Shown here: positions 174 to 9,614 of the stretch, piece after piece
Layout of the letters: every line of letters begins with the position of its first letter
Position numbering within the stretch: the stretch's first letter is position 1
Assembly (NCBI GenBank): GCA_027491315.1
Contig: JAIXWL010000012.1
Coordinates: 1 to 64,000, forward strand
Reading direction: 5' to 3'
Origin: Cytophagaceae bacterium
GTDB lineage: Bacteria; Bacteroidota; Bacteroidia; Cytophagales; Spirosomataceae
Length of the DNA: 64,000 nucleotides
The notes under the pieces: model-generated
Seen by the model: the letters and a program-made list of their open reading frames with translations, nothing else
Told to the model about the DNA's origin: nothing
Databases searched by the model: none
Made by a program: the position numbers and the translations under genes

Positions 174-1022
174 TTAAGGTTTGTAAGTATAAAACCCTTC
201 TCCCGATTTTTGGCCTAGTTTACCAGCATCAATATAAGTCTTTAATAGTGCCGCAAATGCCTTAGAATTAGCATCGGGTAATTGATGCGTTACGTGCCAA
301 GCTGTATCTAGTCCAATCGAGTCTAAGATGGCAAAAGGTCCCATGGGTACATGAAAATTAACCATCCAAGATTTATCAATATCTTCTATCGAAGCCACCT
401 CATTAACTAATAATTTTCCTGCGGCACCCAAAAAAGACAGCAGCATGACATTAAAAATATAGCCGTGGTTTTCTTTTTTGACTAACACAGGAACTTGATT
501 AAGCCTCCGCCCAAATTCCTCTAAGACGGAGATTAACGCTGTATCTGTGCCAGGATGAGGCATGATGTCCACAATTCTTGAATAAAAAACATCATGAAAA
601 TGAAAAGCACAAAAGCGGGCAGGTCGGCCCGTAAAAGAGGCCAAAGAGGAGGGAAGGAGATAAGACGTATTGGTAGTAAAGATGGTTTTTTCGGGGGCTA
701 TTTGGCCCATTCTTTCCCAAACTTTTTGCTTGATAGTTAAATCCTCTGTTACTGATTCAGAAATAATATCAGCAGAAGCTACAGCCTCCTCATCATCCAA
801 TGTGTAGCTTAATCGAGCAAGAGCCAACTGAATAGCTTCGGTTGAATAAATTTTACTGGACACCAAACCTTCGGCAATCTTGTCTATCATCTTCTTGGAC
901 AATTGAAATGAAGCCTCATGGACATCATAGATTTTAACCTCAAAGCCTGATAAAGCTGCTTGAAAGCCAATGCGGCTACCCAAGGTTCCAGCACCTAAAA
1001 TACATACTTGTTGGATTTCCAT
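174..1022 (-). CDS. 3-hydroxyacyl-CoA dehydrogenase (NAD-binding, FadB/Hbd family)
   Basis: A 282-residue enzyme of the family that oxidises L-3-hydroxyacyl-CoA to 3-ketoacyl-CoA with NAD+. The N-terminal Rossmann fold shows GAGTLG at residues 10-15. AFHFHD near residue 140 fits the catalytic His region, and the C-terminal helical domain ends in GEGFYTY, a family hallmark. It is a stand-alone monofunctional form of normal length. It is the last gene of a minus-strand operon (SDR, ACAD, kinase, this gene), with one base between the kinase stop and its ATG, so it probably takes the hydroxyacyl-CoA formed after the ACAD step. Substrate chain length cannot be read from the sequence. Confidence 0.85.
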   Translation of the reverse strand: MEIQQVCILGAGTLGSRIGFQAALSGFEVKIYDVHEASFQLSKKMIDKIAEGLVSSKIYSTEAIQLALARLSYTLDDEEAVASADIISESVTEDLTIKQKVWERMGQIAPEKTIFTTNTSYLLPSSLASFTGRPARFCAFHFHDVFYSRIVDIMPHPGTDTALISVLEEFGRRLNQVPVLVKKENHGYIFNVMLLSFLGAAGKLLVNEVASIEDIDKSWMVNFHVPMGPFAILDSIGLDTAWHVTHQLPDANSKAFAALLKTYIDAGKLGQKSGEGFYTYKP

Positions 1023-1023
1023 A

Positions 1024-2049
1024 TTAAATTCGATGAGTTAAGATACTTTGAACAGCTAATTTCCCACATGCTTTAACCACATGGATTAAGGCAGCAAATC
1101 GTGGATCTGGTGCAAAACCTTGCACATGTCTTTGGTAGATTTGTTGGGCTATCACACCTACCTTAAATAAACCAAAAGTATAGTAAAAATGAATATTATC
1201 TACTTTCAAGGGACTATGCTGAGCATAATAATCAATGACTTGTTGCCGAGTAAAATTTCCCTCTGTATAGGACAAATTAAACATTTTTAAAATTTCGGGA
1301 TCCTGAGCCTCCGCCCAATAGGCTAAAACTGTTCCTAAATCCATTAAGGGATCACCCACGGTAGCCATTTCCCAATCAAGTACCGCTTTGATTTCTGGAT
1401 TTTCAAAACTGTTTAGGACCAAATTATCGTATTTAAAATCATTGTGAATAAATCCTACCTGTTCTTCCTTGGGCATATGTTGTTTCAACCAATCAGCAAG
1501 ATGATTCATATCTAGAATCTCCTCCGTCATTGCCTTTTCATAACGCTCTGCCCATCCATGAACCTGCCTTGAAACAAATCCCTCAGGTTTACCCAAAAGC
1601 CCTAAACCTGACTTTTCTAGTTCCAACTGGTGTAATTCAATTAAAACATCTAAAGAATGAGCCGATAGTTTTTGAAAAAAAGAGGGAGCCAAATCTAAAC
1701 CCTCAGGCATTTTATTTCTTAAAATGGGCCCTTCGACATGTTCCATGATAAAAAATGGAGCATCCCAAATTCCTTCATCTTCACAACATAAAATGGGTCT
1801 AGGGATTTTCTGATAACCCGCCCTTTGCAACCCTTCCAAAATCCTAAATTCACGCACCATATCATGTGCCTTGGAAATTTTCTTTCCTAATGGTGGCCTC
1901 CTCAGAACCCATTTTTTACCTTGAGCTTCGATTCCAAAGGTCAAATTGGAAAAACCACCTTTAAATGGTTTTATTTGAAAATCAGATGCAGGAACATGTA
2001 AATGTTCCGATAAATAGGCTAATAAGGATGCACGCTGTAAATCAATCAT
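1024..2049 (-). CDS. APH-type kinase of the ACAD10/11-LvaA group (putative 4-hydroxyacyl-CoA kinase)
   Basis: A 341-residue protein with the aminoglycoside-phosphotransferase/choline-kinase fold. The nucleotide loop is GGFSNLTFGI (31-40) with WVLRRPP (47-53), the catalytic loop is HNDFKYDN (202-209, Asp204) and the metal-binding motif is LDWE (224-227, Asp225), so all key residues are present. VLRRPP is typical of the kinase-like domain fused to acyl-CoA dehydrogenase in animal ACAD10/ACAD11 and of bacterial LvaA, which phosphorylates 4-hydroxyacyl-CoA. The start overlaps the dehydrogenase stop by four bases (ATGA), implying translational coupling. Antibiotic resistance is unlikely given these neighbours. 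The substrate is inferred. Confidence 0.75.
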   Translation of the reverse strand: MIDLQRASLLAYLSEHLHVPASDFQIKPFKGGFSNLTFGIEAQGKKWVLRRPPLGKKISKAHDMVREFRILEGLQRAGYQKIPRPILCCEDEGIWDAPFFIMEHVEGPILRNKMPEGLDLAPSFFQKLSAHSLDVLIELHQLELEKSGLGLLGKPEGFVSRQVHGWAERYEKAMTEEILDMNHLADWLKQHMPKEEQVGFIHNDFKYDNLVLNSFENPEIKAVLDWEMATVGDPLMDLGTVLAYWAEAQDPEILKMFNLSYTEGNFTRQQVIDYYAQHSPLKVDNIHFYYTFGLFKVGVIAQQIYQRHVQGFAPDPRFAALIHVVKACGKLAVQSILTHRI

Positions 2050-3257
2050 CGATTGGCATAGGATTGAATAATTCTTTTGGCTAACACTGTCTTATGAACC
2101 TCGTCAGGACCATCATAGATTTTAGCCCCTCTTTCATGACGATACCAAAAAGATAATAAAGTGTCATCGGTGATTCCTAAGGCGCCATGTACTTGAATGG
2201 CCTTATCTATCACACGGATCAATACATTAGAAACATAAAACTTGATCGTTGAAATATCTTCTTTGGCAGCTTTGGCACCATATTTCTCTATGAGATAAGC
2301 TGTTTGTAAGACCATCAAACGGGAAGCCTTAATTTCAGCCGCGCTTTCAGCTATTCCATGTTGAATGCTTTGCTGTTCAGCCAATACATGATGTGGATTT
2401 AATTCCCTTGAAAGGGCTCTTTTGCATGTTAATTCCATTACTCGCTCACAGATTCCAATCCAACGCATGCAATGATGTATTCTTCCAGGCCCTAAACGCT
2501 CTTGAGCTAATGCAAAACCTGCTCCAGCTTCTCCAATTAAATTCGATTTGGGTACGCGGCAATCTTTAAATTCAATTTCAGCATGGGATAAATAATCTTC
2601 CCCAACATCACCCATGATGGGAATATTTCGGATAAGTCGATACCCTGGATTATCCAATGGAACTAAAATCATACTAGCCCTTTGGTAGGGATTGGTATTT
2701 TCAGGATCTGTTACCGCCATAACAATCGTAAAATGTGCTCCATCAGCGGAGGAGGTAAACCATTTATGTCCATTGATAACATATTCATCTCCATCCAACA
2801 CAGCTCTGGTAGACAAGTGAATGGGATTACTCCCCGCATGTTCTGGTTCTGTCATGGCAAAACAAGAACGTATTTCACCTTGTTGCAAAGCATGCAAGTA
2901 CTTGGCTTTTAGTTCTTCGGAAGCAAATCGGTGCATCAATTCCATATTTCCGATATCGGGAGCCTGGCAATTAAATACAAAATGGCCCAAAGGACTTAGA
3001 CCCAGCACCTCTGAAATAGAAGCAAACTCCAAAAGGCTAAGACCTAGACCACCATCCTGTAAAGATAAATGGGGAGCAAACAAACCTGCAGATTTAGCTT
3101 TTCGCCTTAGATCATGTAAAGCAGGTAAATGAGCTTTAAAAGATCCATAAATAGCACCTTGCTCCAAGGGAAAAATATGCTGCTCAACAAATTGCCTGTA
3201 TTGAGGCAATAAAGTAGCAACCCGATCAGAAATAAATAAATGAGGTAGAGCTTCCAT
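2046..3257 (-). CDS. Acyl-CoA dehydrogenase, ACAD10/11-LvaC type
   Basis: A 403-residue FAD flavoprotein of the acyl-CoA dehydrogenase family, full length with the usual helical, beta and helical domains. MTEPEHAGSNP near residues 136-146 and NGHKWFTS are flavin/substrate-loop signatures. The C-terminus has YDGPDEVH (381-388) in place of the YEGT of ordinary dehydrogenases. DGPDEVH marks the ACAD10/11 and LvaC group, which handles 4-phosphoacyl-CoA made by a partner kinase. That kinase is encoded immediately downstream with a four-base overlap, so the pair looks like a split version of the eukaryotic fusion. Electrons would go to ETF, which is not encoded in the window. Confidence 0.85.
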   Translation of the reverse strand: MEALPHLFISDRVATLLPQYRQFVEQHIFPLEQGAIYGSFKAHLPALHDLRRKAKSAGLFAPHLSLQDGGLGLSLLEFASISEVLGLSPLGHFVFNCQAPDIGNMELMHRFASEELKAKYLHALQQGEIRSCFAMTEPEHAGSNPIHLSTRAVLDGDEYVINGHKWFTSSADGAHFTIVMAVTDPENTNPYQRASMILVPLDNPGYRLIRNIPIMGDVGEDYLSHAEIEFKDCRVPKSNLIGEAGAGFALAQERLGPGRIHHCMRWIGICERVMELTCKRALSRELNPHHVLAEQQSIQHGIAESAAEIKASRLMVLQTAYLIEKYGAKAAKEDISTIKFYVSNVLIRVIDKAIQVHGALGITDDTLLSFWYRHERGAKIYDGPDEVHKTVLAKRIIQSYANR

Positions 3258-3262
3258 AATGT

Positions 3263-4030
3263 TTAAATGGTAAATCCGCCATCGGCAGTTAAAACGGTAC
3301 CTGTTGTATAAGAAGATGCCTCAGAAGCTAAATAAAGGGCCGCAGCAGCTATTTCCTCAGGTTTTCCTACCCGTTTGATCGGTAAGCTTTTCATCATGTG
3401 TTTTAAGATATGTTCATTATCCCATAAGGCTTCCGAAAACTTTGTCTTGATTAATCCCGGACAAATAGCATTTACTCGGATACCATGCTCGCCCCATTCT
3501 TTGGCAAATACTTCAGTCATGGAAATTAATGCCGCTTTACTGACACTATATATTCCTAAACCAGCCTCTGGCGATAATCCACCAATGGATGAAATATTGA
3601 TGACGGAAGCAGCATCTGATTTTTTGAGATAGGGAAAACAAATTTTCATCAATTGAAAAGGAGCCTTTAAATTAACCTCTATGATTTTATCAAAAGCTTC
3701 CAAGCTGGTATCTTCCACTGGACCAAAAACCGGATTAGTGGCGGCATTATTCACGACAATGTCTAATTGTCCGTATAAATCAATGGTTTGATCCACCAAA
3801 GCTTGTAATTCATCCATATGACCTACGTGACAAGCTACCGCTTCTACCGATAAACCTTTTTCGCGAAGCTCCAGTGCCATTTCATCCAAAGACTCTTGTT
3901 TTCTACTACTTATAACCACTTTAGCGCCAGCCTGGGCAAATGCCTCTGCTATACTTAAACCAATTCCCTTGCTCGCACCTGTAATTAATGCCACTTTCCC
4001 TTCTAGGGAAAACAATGTAAATGGATACAT
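3263..4030 (-). CDS. SDR-family oxidoreductase
   Basis: A classical short-chain dehydrogenase of 255 residues from the chosen start. ITGASKGIG (16-24) is the nucleotide-binding TGxxxGxG motif, NNAA follows, and YSVSK holds the catalytic Tyr and Lys. The frame extends 21 codons further upstream (to 4093), but those residues match nothing in the family, so Met at 4030 is preferred. It is the first gene of the four-gene operon, five bases before the acyl-CoA dehydrogenase. By analogy with LvaD in levulinate catabolism it could reduce a 4-keto (or act on a 3-keto/hydroxy) acyl-CoA. The true substrate is unknown. Confidence 0.85.
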   Translation of the reverse strand: MYPFTLFSLEGKVALITGASKGIGLSIAEAFAQAGAKVVISSRKQESLDEMALELREKGLSVEAVACHVGHMDELQALVDQTIDLYGQLDIVVNNAATNPVFGPVEDTSLEAFDKIIEVNLKAPFQLMKICFPYLKKSDAASVINISSIGGLSPEAGLGIYSVSKAALISMTEVFAKEWGEHGIRVNAICPGLIKTKFSEALWDNEHILKHMMKSLPIKRVGKPEEIAAAALYLASEASSYTTGTVLTADGGFTI

Positions 4031-4141
4031 AAAATATTGTTTTGTTAAGAAACAATTTAAGCATTCTAAGCTAAATTTAGGTGGGCTCTCCAAGTTTTTT
4101 TTTATATTCCTTTTTTATTTCCGCTTTTAAAATCCAACCGC

Positions 4142-5113
4142 ATGAAACAAGTTATTTTTGAACAAACTGGATTACCCAAAGATGTCCTTAAGCTAGTTGA
4201 ATCCCCTATGCCTGAACCGCAACCTCATGAGCTTAGAATAAAGGTAGTAGCTAGGAATATCAATCCATCTGATATCATGTTTATTCAAGGATTATATGGC
4301 ATTCAGCCTAAATTACCTTGTAGTGCTGGTTTTGAAGCCGTTGGACTTATTGAAACAACAGATAGTAATCAATCTTATCCCATAGGTACTCGGGTTATAT
4401 TTACGGCTATAGGAACTTGGAAAGAATATGTATGTGTCCCTGCCAATTCGGTTATTCCGGTGCCTACTAATATGAGCAATGAAATGGCTTGTCAGGCTTT
4501 CATTAATCCCTTAACGGCTTATGCCATGTTGGAAGCCAGTGGATTGAAGGAGGGAGATAAATTATTGATAACTGCCGGAGCCTCGGCTTGGGGGAAATTG
4601 GTGATACAGATGGCCAAGCAAAAAGGTATTTGGGTGGCAGCTACGGTTCGCCAAGCTGCTCAAAAAAGACATCTTTATGATTTAGGGGCAGATTTAGTTG
4701 TTGATACAGAAAATGAAAAAGTAAGCAAGGTCATCAAAGAAAAAGCTCCTCAAGGGGTTCAAGCCATTTTTGATGCTGTGGGTGGACAACTTGCCGCTCA
4801 AATTTTAAATTGCCTTGAAATAGGAGGGACCATGCATGTATTCGGTTTATTAAGCTTAGAAAACATTCCTTTGAATTCAGGTTTACTAATCTTTAAAAAT
4901 TTAAGCGTTAAGGGCTTTTGGTTAACTAGTTGGATGGAAAGCCTTAGTCCTGAAAAGCGGTTTTCGGCCATTAAAACGGTATTTGAACACTTAGCTAAAG
5001 AAAGTATTCAAATGGATGTGGCTACTACCTATCCATTAGAGAATTTTCAAGAAGCCATTGAGGCTTATCAAACTCCAATGAGGAATGGGAAGGTGTTGAT
5101 TGTTAGTGATTAG
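4142..5113 (+). CDS. MDR-family NAD(P)H-dependent reductase (quinone/enoyl reductase-like)
   Basis: A 323-residue medium-chain dehydrogenase/reductase without zinc ligands. It has a GroES-like N-terminal half and a Rossmann half with AGASAWGKLVIQMAK near residues 145-160. Overall it resembles mitochondrial trans-2-enoyl-CoA/ACP reductase (ETR/MECR) and quinone oxidoreductases. It is divergent from the CoA-thioester operon across a 111-bp gap, so it may share control and act on the same enoyl intermediates; that link is inference. Its stop codon runs directly into the TTAGGG-like repeats. Confidence 0.75.
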   Translation: MKQVIFEQTGLPKDVLKLVESPMPEPQPHELRIKVVARNINPSDIMFIQGLYGIQPKLPCSAGFEAVGLIETTDSNQSYPIGTRVIFTAIGTWKEYVCVPANSVIPVPTNMSNEMACQAFINPLTAYAMLEASGLKEGDKLLITAGASAWGKLVIQMAKQKGIWVAATVRQAAQKRHLYDLGADLVVDTENEKVSKVIKEKAPQGVQAIFDAVGGQLAAQILNCLEIGGTMHVFGLLSLENIPLNSGLLIFKNLSVKGFWLTSWMESLSPEKRFSAIKTVFEHLAKESIQMDVATTYPLENFQEAIEAYQTPMRNGKVLIVSD

Positions 5114-6816: not shown

Positions 6817-7197
6817 CTAGGTTAATTTATTCTTTTGAAACTTGAGTTCCATTTCCAGAATTCGGTATTGCACCATTTCCTGGATTAATTGAATAGGTAA
6901 ATCTTTATTCATTGGGAATTGAATGGTACCCTTAGACATGACATAATCTGTTGATTTATCCTGAAATGCTTCAATACAACTTGCATGAGGAAACAAACTA
7001 ATATGTTCTTTAAAAGCTCCAAAGTAGAGTAAAATCTTCCCTTTCCACTTGAAAGCCGGCATATAATATGAAATTACTTCCAAGGCGTCTGGGAGCAATT
7101 GCTTCACTATTTTACGAATAGCTTGTAGTCGCACTTGTTTATCCGAATCATGACACTCAATATAATGGTCTACTGATAGATAAGTAGTTTTATCCAT
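6817..7197 (-). CDS. DUF1801 (YdhG-like) domain protein
   Basis: A 126-residue soluble protein with the DUF1801 fold, sometimes annotated as iron-chaperone-like after the frataxin-like shape of relatives. The typical pattern is an early helix leading to a YYMPAFKWKGK-type strand (near residues 43-53), then a YFGAFKEHISLFP strand and a KGTIQFP motif near residues 90-96. It ends 22 bases before the esterase start on the same strand, so the two may be cotranscribed. Biochemical role is unknown. Confidence 0.7.
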   Translation of the reverse strand: MDKTTYLSVDHYIECHDSDKQVRLQAIRKIVKQLLPDALEVISYYMPAFKWKGKILLYFGAFKEHISLFPHASCIEAFQDKSTDYVMSKGTIQFPMNKDLPIQLIQEMVQYRILEMELKFQKNKLT

Positions 7198-7224
7198 GAT
7201 TAAATTTTTCCAAAAAGTAGAAAA

Positions 7225-7378
7225 ATATTTGACAATTAATATCCTTATACCTGGAAATAATCACCTAAACCTTTAAAATAGAAAAGAAATAAAAAAAGAT
7301 TCATTAAAAAGAATGATCGCTCAAATCTTAATATTTTGTCAAATATTAGAAATTTTCCGTACTATTTGTCAAATCTTA
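7225..7378. repeat. Three TTTGTCAAAT-like sites
   Basis: ATATTTGACAA (7225-7235), TTTGTCAAATATT (7335-7347) and TATTTGTCAAATCTTA (7363-7378) share an ATTTG(A/T)CAAAT-like half-palindromic core. TCAAATCTTAAT is also repeated directly at 7321-7332 and 7370-7381. They lie just upstream of the DUF1801 gene (minus strand), the last copy overlapping the thuA-like stop codon. They could be regulator sites; this is only pattern evidence. Confidence 0.35.
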
Positions 7379-8207
7379 ATTGATCATCTTTGCCAGTGGA
7401 AAAAGCCTTATTGAAATCAATTCCTTTGAATTGACTTGCCACATATTTAATCCCTTGCAAAAGGTGATTTCGGTAGGATGGATTTTGATAATCCGTTTTA
7501 GAATGCCCCAAGGTAGTCACCCAAATATTCCCCCCTTGAAAGTGTTGAAACCAAACCGCTGGGAAATAATCACCAAATGTACCTACATGCTTTTGAATTA
7601 AATCCGATTGCTTTTTATCCAAGCTACGCACATCATGCATCATCAAAACTTGAATGCCCGGGTACATTTCTCTACCAAAATAACATTCATCTTCTTTTGT
7701 CCAAACAGCGGGTATACCTTCCATAGATGGATGTTTAGGATTGATATTGATTAAAGAAAAGGACTGGAAATTGGCATGCCAAGTAAATGTTTCACCTACC
7801 ATTGATTTAAACCATGACCATTTTCTTTCGGTACCGGTAACGGAATGAACCCCGACAAAACCTCCTCCAGCTTCAATATACCTTCTAAATGCCAGGCGCT
7901 GCTCATCAGTGGCAAACACGTCATTGTTGGTACTTGTAAAAATAATCAAGGTGTATTTTTTCAAATTTGCTTCTGCAAAAACAGTAGGGTCGTCGGAAAC
8001 ATCCACTAAAAACTTATTGGCTAGTCCTAGATCTTGTATGCAAGCTACAGCCGAAGGAATATTATCATGGACATAGCCCACTCCATTTTTGGTATAGACC
8101 AAAACCCGACTGTTCTTTAATGAATTCTTTTGAGCCCGAAGGGGTGTCCATATAGAAATCGAAAAGAAAACAAGCAAAAAAAGACCTAAAAAGACTGATT
8201 TTTTCAT
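7362..8207 (-). CDS. Exported ThuA-domain protein
   Basis: A 281-residue protein with an N-terminal signal peptide (MKKSVFLGLFLLVFF, cleavage near LRAQ) and a ThuA-type class I amidotransferase-like fold. Visible family features are RVLVYTKNGVGYVHDNI, a central AGGGFVGVHSVTG turn (near 115-127) and TLGHSK near the C-terminus. The upstream Met at 8219 would place four extra residues before the signal, so Met at 8207 is chosen. ThuA proteins are linked to trehalose and other sugar use, but catalysis is not established for exported forms. The 297 bases upstream to the next gene show only AT-rich sequence and no clear promoter. Confidence 0.8.
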   Translation of the reverse strand: MKKSVFLGLFLLVFFSISIWTPLRAQKNSLKNSRVLVYTKNGVGYVHDNIPSAVACIQDLGLANKFLVDVSDDPTVFAEANLKKYTLIIFTSTNNDVFATDEQRLAFRRYIEAGGGFVGVHSVTGTERKWSWFKSMVGETFTWHANFQSFSLININPKHPSMEGIPAVWTKEDECYFGREMYPGIQVLMMHDVRSLDKKQSDLIQKHVGTFGDYFPAVWFQHFQGGNIWVTTLGHSKTDYQNPSYRNHLLQGIKYVASQFKGIDFNKAFSTGKDDQLRFDK

Positions 8208-8504
8208 AAATAATCCCAATCAAATAAAATGTGATAGATGTATAATCCTTAAAACCCAATTTGAGTAATTTCTTACTCAAATTTCAGATAAGGAAAGTTA
8301 AGCTAAATATTAAAAGCTAAAAAATAAGCTGAAATAAACTGAGCTATCAATTCCCATCCAAAAAATGCTCGGTAATTTTGGCCATGTATTTGGACTGTAT
8401 TCATTTATTTTCAGGAATTAGAATTAGAAAAAATGGGAGAAAATTTGGTAATTTAAAAGTTTGAAACCGAATAATACCATCAAATACCTAATCCAAAATT
8501 AACC

Positions 8505-9614
8505 ATGAAGGTAATCTTATTAACCTTATTAGTCAGCTTTTCTCTCTTTGGCCAAATTGAAAAAAAAGATGTTGGGGTCCTAAAAGGAGGGACATACCAA
8601 ATATTAATTCCTACCAATTGGAATAAAAAATTAGTCATGTATGCCCATGGCTACCAGTTTCAAGGTCAAAAGCCCCAAGATGCCAACCTCGGATTAGATA
8701 AACGCTTACAAGTCATTTTAGATCGGGGTTTTGCCATAGCAGCCTCTGATTACCCTGATGTTGGTTTTGTATTACCAGAAGGTATAGATGCTACAGAAGA
8801 ACTACGACAGGCCTTTGTCAAAAAGGTAGCTAAACCTGATTCAACCTTCATGATGGGACATTCCATGGGAGGAGGAATTACTTTAGGAATCATGGAAAAT
8901 TATGGAGAAAATTACCATGGTGCTCTTCCATTATGTCCATTATCTTCTAGGCCATATTTACAGTGTAGAAAAGAATTTGATATGTACGCTACCTTCAATG
9001 GGCTATTTCCTAGAATTATACCCAGTTTAAAAGAAATTTTTGATGTAAACTCATCTGTGGGATATGTCAATTTAGCCCAAGCTGGACCTAAAATTGGTCA
9101 AATCATGAAAGCTATCATGGAGAAGGATTCTGTATTGGCAAAAGCATTCGCCAAGCGATTTGACTTAAAATTAAAGGATCTTGGAGGTTCCTTATTTTTT
9201 AATCAAAATGTACTCCGGGATTTAGCCATCCGATTCGGAGGAAATCCATTTGATAACCTCCAAACGGTCTATTCAGGTTTTCCGGATGATTTATTAACGA
9301 ACCGGCTAGCAGAAAGATTAGTGGCAACTAAAAATCCCAACCCATTATTTTCCAGATATGATCGTACTGGCAATATCAATAAGCCTGTATTATTAGTGCA
9401 TACGATTTATGATCAATTGATTCCACCGACTTACGCAGTGGTGAATTACGAAAACATGGTGCACCAGCTGCAAAAAGATCAGTATTTTACTGTGAAATAC
9501 ACCAATGGGCAAGCTCATTGTGCCTTTACAGCCCAACAAATGGCAACATCATTTGACACATTAAGGAATTGGGTAAAAAAAGGAATTAAACCGCAAGGAG
9601 GATTTTTAGAATAA
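8505..9614 (+). CDS. Secreted alpha/beta hydrolase
   Basis: A 369-residue hydrolase with a signal peptide (residues 1-17, cleavage near LFGQ). The nucleophile is in GHSMGG with Ser120, Asp303 sits in TIYDQLIPP and His338 in GQAHCAF, which together give a complete catalytic triad. VMYAHGY near 44-50 fits the oxyanion hole. The stop overlaps the next start by one base (TAATG), so it is translationally coupled to an MFS permease. The arrangement suggests hydrolysis of an extracellular ester followed by import of the released acid. The substrate is unknown. Confidence 0.8.
   Translation: MKVILLTLLVSFSLFGQIEKKDVGVLKGGTYQILIPTNWNKKLVMYAHGYQFQGQKPQDANLGLDKRLQVILDRGFAIAASDYPDVGFVLPEGIDATEELRQAFVKKVAKPDSTFMMGHSMGGGITLGIMENYGENYHGALPLCPLSSRPYLQCRKEFDMYATFNGLFPRIIPSLKEIFDVNSSVGYVNLAQAGPKIGQIMKAIMEKDSVLAKAFAKRFDLKLKDLGGSLFFNQNVLRDLAIRFGGNPFDNLQTVYSGFPDDLLTNRLAERLVATKNPNPLFSRYDRTGNINKPVLLVHTIYDQLIPPTYAVVNYENMVHQLQKDQYFTVKYTNGQAHCAFTAQQMATSFDTLRNWVKKGIKPQGGFLE

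Follow-up and report, generated by a model that had tools for sequence, protein, structure and literature searches.

The question raised by a four-gene operon at positions 174–4030 of the stretch analysed here is whether a bacterium of the Bacteroidota carries, as two separate proteins, the kinase and the acyl-CoA dehydrogenase (ACAD) that animals fuse in ACAD10 and ACAD11. The stretch, hereafter called the window, comprises 64,000 nucleotides from base 1 onward of a contig (C1; JAIXWL010000012.1) in a 2.9 Mb genome of a Cytophagaceae bacterium. According to the open reading frame (ORF) listing, all four genes lie on the minus strand and encode, in order, a short-chain dehydrogenase/reductase (SDR), the ACAD, an APH-type kinase, and a 3-hydroxyacyl-CoA dehydrogenase. 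Judging from the sequences, this operon most probably represents a catabolic route by which 4-hydroxyacyl- and 4-oxoacyl-CoA enter β-oxidation. Its ACAD and kinase appear to be a divergent sister form of ACAD10/11 and not members of the ACAD11 clade proper. The original prediction, made from the DNA alone, had described a split pair of the ACAD10/11 and LvaA/LvaC kind. It is partly supported: the interpretation was right in kind, and corrections are needed for the clade of the ACAD, the class of the kinase, and the identity of the SDR. Papers are cited below by accession.

In mouse ACAD11, R626, H634, R637, and the catalytic D753 are the residues at the 4-phosphoacyl site (PMC12440821); the published residue numbers exceed by one those from our count along the aligned chain. 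The equivalents in the window ACAD are R254, H262, and R265, all on the active-site helix, and D382, the catalytic Asp that replaces Glu. In our alignment this tetrad is kept in all 112 rows of the clade to which the window ACAD belongs (the sister clade, window included) and in all 22 canonical rows, which include mouse ACAD11. None of the 11 ordinary ACADs has any of the four residues; their catalytic place is occupied by Glu in ten cases and by Gly in one. The window ACAD contains the motifs IYDGPDEVH and RLGPGRIHHCMR. The DGPDEVH signature named in the original prediction is present, but it is not the best marker: several members read DGADEVH, and the R...HCMR helix together with the Asp separates the groups better.

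The closest solved relatives of the window ACAD by sequence are mouse ACAD11, human ACAD11, and 4hr3, with E values from 1.5e-77 to 4.5e-81; the next of the 88 solved-structure sequence matches has an E value of 1.3e-38. The same three lead when the fold is compared. An AlphaFold model of the window ACAD (mean predicted local distance difference test score, pLDDT, 88.7) matched 4hr3 with a Z score of 47.5, human ACAD11 with 46.0, and mouse ACAD11 with 45.6, whereas the next entry reached 39.4. 4hr3, a putative ACAD of Mycobacterium abscessus, is the closest solved structure by fold (2.0 Å over 388 residues). Like the window ACAD it carries the Asp and an R...H.MR helix, but it belongs to the canonical clade and is 37% identical to the window ACAD.

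The phylogeny places the window ACAD beside these proteins. A scan of named genomes gave 592 matching stretches (589 confirmed), the best 80 of which are called the named loci. The ACAD tree comprised 39 sister-clade rows (including the window), 22 canonical rows, and 11 ordinary rows, 72 in total; 38 of its sister-clade rows were hand-picked for spread from 111 hits, and the residue counts above cover all 111 and the window. All 39 sister rows formed one clade (support 98/99), and all 11 ordinary rows formed another (100/100). A third (100/100) contained 21 of the 22 canonical rows, including mouse ACAD11 and 4hr3. The remaining canonical row, from a Rhodococcus plasmid (L164), was unplaced. 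It should be mentioned that the program flagged very long branches in the trees of the ACAD, the kinase, and the SDR, and that these trees cover ACAD11 and other relatives apart from LvaA, LvaC, LvaD, IBR1, and IBR3. A position of the window ACAD inside the ACAD11 clade was ruled out by this tree. The original prediction had expected it within the ACAD10/11–LvaC clade and had taken a position outside as evidence against itself; in that narrow sense it is refuted, even though the same function still seems to apply. What holds is that the ACAD groups next to the ACAD11 clade.

The sister clade is widely distributed. In the best 80 loci it occurs in Bacteroidota, Ignavibacteriota, Gemmatimonadota, Chloroflexota, Thermodesulfobacteriota, Planctomycetota, Myxococcota, Verrucomicrobiota, Deinococcota, Cyanobacteriota, and others, mostly in metagenome-assembled genomes (MAGs). 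Within the family of the window genome, 64 of 101 genomes have an ACAD match of at least 56% identity and four have one of 39–40%, by our own count of rows.

As for the kinase, the catalytic Asp204 and the metal-binding Asp225, which the original prediction had given as intact, are indeed present in the alignment, together with His202. Its nearest solved relatives are 9o56 (E value of 3.6e-78), 3dxp, and the kinase domain of ACAD11. The catalytic stretch, however, is H-N-D in the window kinase and H-G-D in mouse ACAD11 and 3dxp. Besides the window, 28 of the 29 sister-clade kinases in the tree have H-N-D and one has H-G-D; the kinases beside canonical ACADs (n = 17) comprise 11 with H-N-D, four with H-G-D, one with H-Y-D, and one without a pattern match. 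In the kinase tree, which has a very long outgroup and was read without its root, mouse ACAD11, 3dxp, and four H-G-D plasmid kinases formed one group (99/100). The window kinase grouped with H-N-D kinases and not in the ACAD11 kinase subclade. Eleven of the 18 canonical-side kinases nested among sister-clade kinases, and the clade labels required eight changes against a minimum of three. Kinases have thus been exchanged between both ACAD clades, which fits one shared function. The sole sister-clade kinase in the tree with H-G-D, from a Thermoanaerobaculales MAG (L135), was nested among the kinases of canonical ACADs, a clear exchange of partners.

The pairing of the two proteins is also seen across genomes. 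The phylum was screened in 395 genomes with cut-offs of E ≤ 1e-60 for the ACAD, E ≤ 1e-30 for the kinase, and E ≤ 1e-65 for the SDR, which were placed at gaps in the score lists after inspection. The ACAD was found in 27 genomes of nine families (20 of the sister clade and seven canonical), and the kinase in the identical set of 27. The distance between the two genes was 5 kb or less in 21 genomes; in the other six they lay on different contigs (four) or were separated by 101 kb (one) or 7.7 kb (one). Of the 27 genomes with the ACAD, 23 also had an SDR of the window type, as did one of the 368 others, 24 in all. In 15 of the 23 this SDR lay no more than 5 kb from the ACAD, and in eight it was unlinked. 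The Fisher values for co-occurrence, 2e-42 and 4e-32, ignore relatedness. Absences of the SDR are weaker than its presences, because at most six SDR candidates were scored per genome. The single genome with the SDR but no ACAD or kinase match is G255 (L199, G255:C2:277722-278462). Since its congeners G103, G108, G150, and G158 have all three, loss of the ACAD and kinase looks likely in G255.

Neighbours in the 80 named loci were counted from stop-to-stop frames by BLAST against the proteins of the window and a few others. A kinase was near the ACAD in 63 loci; in ten, a contig end truncated the locus. An SDR on the same strand (identity of 40% or more) was near the ACAD in 31 loci and a 3-hydroxyacyl-CoA dehydrogenase in 16; all four genes stood together in 12.

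These observations of homology, active-site residues, gene order, and co-occurrence are consistent with a route in which 4-oxoacyl-CoA would be converted via 4-hydroxyacyl-CoA and 4-phosphoacyl-CoA to 2-enoyl-CoA and passed to β-oxidation; each substrate and reaction in it is assigned by homology, on the basis of the reactions described in PMC11342911 and PMC12440821. The SDR would interconvert 4-oxoacyl-CoA and 4-hydroxyacyl-CoA, and the kinase would transfer the γ-phosphate of ATP to the 4-hydroxyl group. The ACAD would then withdraw hydrogen, let the phosphate depart, and return the flavin electrons, so as to give trans-2-enoyl-CoA with no outside acceptor. The same elimination with return of electrons was proposed for ACAD10, for which no added acceptor was needed (PMC11342911). 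For the hydration, a crotonase from a gene outside the operon might serve, or the ACAD might perform part of this step, which LvaC and ACAD10 are reported to do; the 3-hydroxyacyl-CoA dehydrogenase of the operon would then lead on to thiolase. The partial hydration to 3-hydroxyacyl-CoA described in that work (PMC11342911) would suit the presence of this dehydrogenase in the operon.

Several points weigh against this assignment. The window ACAD lies outside the clade of mouse ACAD11, in a well-supported sister clade, and its identity to 20 canonical rows is only 37–44%. A pocket proline that widens the cavity (Pro463 of human ACAD11) was described as highly conserved (PMC11342911), and its place is occupied by His92 in the window ACAD. 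This column is His in 101 and Pro in none of the 112 sister rows; among the canonical rows it is Pro in only 10 of 22. Four of the 27 ACAD genomes (G149, G286, G188, and G410) lack the SDR, and seven of the 80 named loci have full flanks and no nearby kinase. Finally, no LvaB-like or CoA-ligase gene was found within the window operon. Five AMP-binding genes lie elsewhere in the genome, along with matches to three crotonases, three thiolases (one below the cut-off), and two electron transfer flavoproteins, so that activation and the remaining β-oxidation can be supplied.

The window SDR is of the DHRS4 type and belongs to a group that co-occurs with the pathway. Among 255 PDB sequences matching it at E ≤ 1e-30, pig DHRS4 ranked first (6e-63) and human DHRS4 second (2.3e-61); worm DHRS4 ranked fourth, after a gluconate 5-dehydrogenase. 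In an SDR tree of 80 rows, from which near copies in L028–L031 and L033 were left out, 49 SDRs and three DHRS4 chains formed one clade (98/98), whereas 26 other SDRs from the same set of loci and two PDB SDRs fell outside. When the six nearest SDRs of 37–40% identity and 23 SDRs of the phylum screen were added, in a larger tree of 16 hand-picked loci and phylum rows, the support was 93/96, slightly below the usual 95. SDRs were assigned to the group when they were at least 42% identical to that of the window (at least 43% for phylum rows in the larger tree), whether linked or not. Canonical ACAD loci contributed six of the 49 (L024, L155, L156, L158, L159, and L163), which means that the SDR accompanies both ACAD clades.

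The window SDR might instead use free carbonyl compounds, or serve as a second 3-hydroxyacyl-CoA dehydrogenase that is specific for the D form and acts at carbon 3, although this is the less probable reading. In its favour, the substrates of SDRs are difficult to foresee; among the matches listed, the window SDR passed a single curated NCBIfam cut-off, that of the broad subfamily NF005559; and DHRS4 was characterised as a reductase of retinol, carbonyls, and steroids (PMC10288848). However, the operon already has a 3-hydroxyacyl-CoA dehydrogenase, and LvaD is named 4-oxopentanoyl-CoA 4-dehydrogenase in the lva pathway (PMC9628823). Furthermore, co-occurrence of the SDR with the pathway holds even where the genes are unlinked (8 of 23 genomes). 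Action at carbon 4, the LvaD step to which the original prediction had assigned the SDR, is plausible and is preferred here.

The plant protein IBR3 is presumably an APH-ACAD fusion. With this assumption, a wider proposal can be made, which is more tentative still than the alternative just discussed: the DHRS4-type SDR may be a third ancient member of the ACAD10/11 pathway, making or removing 4-hydroxyacyl-CoA. By homology, animal DHRS4 might work with ACAD11 in peroxisomes, and plant IBR1 with IBR3, so that indole-3-butyric acid would be converted to indole-3-acetic acid via 4-oxo, 4-hydroxy, or 4-phosphorylated CoA intermediates and not by plain β-oxidation. The window SDR resembles DHRS4 (pig 2zat, human 3o4r, and worm 5ojg) in grouping with the animal enzymes and differs in that DHRS4 is a peroxisomal animal protein. 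Plant SDRa/IBR1 was grouped with human DHRS4, and its mechanism was called still unknown (PMC10288848). In zebrafish, Acad11 and Dhrs4 were treated as peroxisomal proteins with PTS1 signals (PMC8919083). No paper tying DHRS4 or IBR3 to the ACAD10/11 pathway was found among the open-licence matches listed, and the main text of PMC11342911 and PMC12440821 has no mention of DHRS4, IBR3, or Arabidopsis.

It is also conceivable, though rather unlikely, that the operon performs the same chemistry on another natural substrate, such as an aromatic, isoprenoid, or carrier-bound side chain, in place of 4-hydroxy and 4-oxo fatty acids. The surroundings of the pocket differ between the sister and canonical clades (AGSNP against SSDAT; APH or GLQ against NLF), one member sits between nonribosomal peptide synthetase (NRPS) genes in a Moorena MAG, and homologues of two members, if IBR3 is counted as kin on the assumption above, act on plant indole-3-butyric acid (PMC10288848, PMC6616111). 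Against this reading, the window operon includes a 3-hydroxyacyl-CoA dehydrogenase, whereas genes devoted to aromatic or other special substrates are absent from it. That an ordinary ACAD adjoins an unrelated aminoglycoside-type kinase by chance is highly improbable: Pfam names only broad families, but the idea was ruled out by the tree, the catalytic Asp and the R/H/R residues on the active-site helix, and the identical set of genomes for kinase and ACAD.

Compared with the known systems, the window pair shares with ACAD10 and ACAD11 (mouse 8v3u/8v3v and human 2wbi) the proposed action of a kinase and an ACAD on the same acyl chain, the tetrad, the catalytic Asp of the kinase, and the fold (Z of 45.6–46.0 for ACAD11). 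It differs in that the kinase and ACAD are two separate proteins, in the sister-clade position of the ACAD (approximately 37% identical to ACAD11), in H-N-D against H-G-D, and in the change of Pro463 to His92. The levulinate (lva) operon of Pseudomonas putida likewise has a separate kinase (LvaA) and ACAD (LvaC) with an SDR (LvaD) in one operon and the same proposed route, by description and not by sequence (PMC12440821, PMC11342911, PMC9628823); the window operon lacks the LvaB and CoA-ligase genes that complete the lva set and adds the 3-hydroxyacyl-CoA dehydrogenase. LvaC is 62% and 56% identical to the ACAD domains of ACAD10 and ACAD11, respectively (PMC11342911), as against the approximately 37% of the window ACAD.

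The chemistry and the split bacterial form (LvaA/LvaC) are thus already known, and either half of ACAD10 could be replaced by its bacterial counterpart, a kinase or an ACAD (PMC11342911). The mammalian enzymes of the pathway were assigned only in 2024–2025 (PMC11342911, PMC12440821). Among the open-licence matches listed, no published account was found of the sister clade, of kinases passing between clades, or of a DHRS4-type SDR conserved along with the pathway as its third member, and nothing of use was found on an lva operon in Bacteroidota. The co-occurrence suggests the DHRS4-type SDR as a third pathway partner, which is the new element here, and provides genomic evidence for its membership. 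In addition, a large sister clade across many bacterial phyla is added to the family, without a solved or, as far as we found, an assayed member, and the window operon offers small separate proteins for mechanistic work. With 4-oxoacyl- and 4-hydroxyacyl-CoAs, both the mechanism of SDRa/IBR1 and the part that DHRS4 plays alongside ACAD11 can now be tested directly.

Table 1. Features of the operon and its divergent neighbour, in window positions
Feature	Position	Length	Strand	Basis
SDR, DHRS4 type, proposed 4-oxoacyl-CoA/4-hydroxyacyl-CoA oxidoreductase	3263..4030		-	adh_short_C2, E 3.5e-69 (on ORF 3263-4093); tree; co-occurrence
ACAD, sister clade of ACAD11, proposed 4-phosphoacyl-CoA phosphate-eliminating flavoenzyme	2046..3257	403 aa	-	Acyl-CoA_dh_N/M/1; R254, H262, R265, D382
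APH-type kinase, proposed 4-hydroxyacyl-CoA kinase	1024..2049	341 aa	-	APH, E 5.6e-42; His202, Asp204, Asp225
Overlap of ACAD stop and kinase start	2046..2049	4 bases	-	ORF coordinates
3-Hydroxyacyl-CoA dehydrogenase	174..1022	282 aa	-	Pfam 3HCDH_N/3HCDH; NF006143, above its cut-off
Quinone/enone-type oxidoreductase, divergent from SDR, possible associate	4142..5113		+	kept in congeneric loci

The operon is real and conserved. The ORF coordinates (Table 1) show the tight packing of the four genes and confirm the overlap of the kinase and ACAD noted in the original prediction: the gap between the SDR and the ACAD is five bases, and that between the kinase and the dehydrogenase is one base. The ORF of the SDR opens with TTG, and the ATG at 4030 is the better start. 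NCBIfam and Pfam agree on the families of the operon proteins. The four genes and the divergent oxidoreductase were present in conserved order in all six congeneric loci fetched (L028–L033), and the ACAD in seven of eight congeneric genomes with the window genome counted, G090 being without it. The operon ends 173 bases from the contig end. In both relatives inspected (n = 2), the next gene of at least 100 amino acids past the operon is convergent, so that the operon is probably complete; its continuation past the contig end was ruled out as far as these two congeners show. A scan for promoters and terminators was set aside, as it gave 14 promoter-like sites where 15.6 were expected and nine terminator-like sites where 5.4 were (standard deviation 2.2).

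A homologue of the divergent oxidoreductase with at least 45% identity occurs in 10 of the 80 named loci. As a speculation, an enone or enal reductase at this place would fit 4-oxo and 4-hydroxy alkenals from lipid peroxidation. Among solved structures, the diketoreductase 4dyd is closest to the 3-hydroxyacyl-CoA dehydrogenase (E value of 2.9e-60). In the alignment of these two, an Asp of the window protein (VDIM) stands at the place of a Glu of the diketoreductase (AEVM), which we take to be the Glu of the His-Glu pair.

A gene of the histidine phosphatase family is near the ACAD in 12 of the 80 named loci. Examples beside the kinase or ACAD come from several phyla (L024:9028-9741, L027:7023-7727, and L163:3438-4109), and the phosphatase might remove stray phosphorylated products. 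In the Moorena MAG (contig WTKN01000217.1; L078:1-14643), a sister-clade ACAD (6992-8188) and a kinase (8178-9209) lie between two NRPS-type frames, which contain condensation, AMP-binding, PP-binding, and thioesterase domains. This pair may act in natural-product synthesis, perhaps on a carrier-bound 4-hydroxyacyl group.

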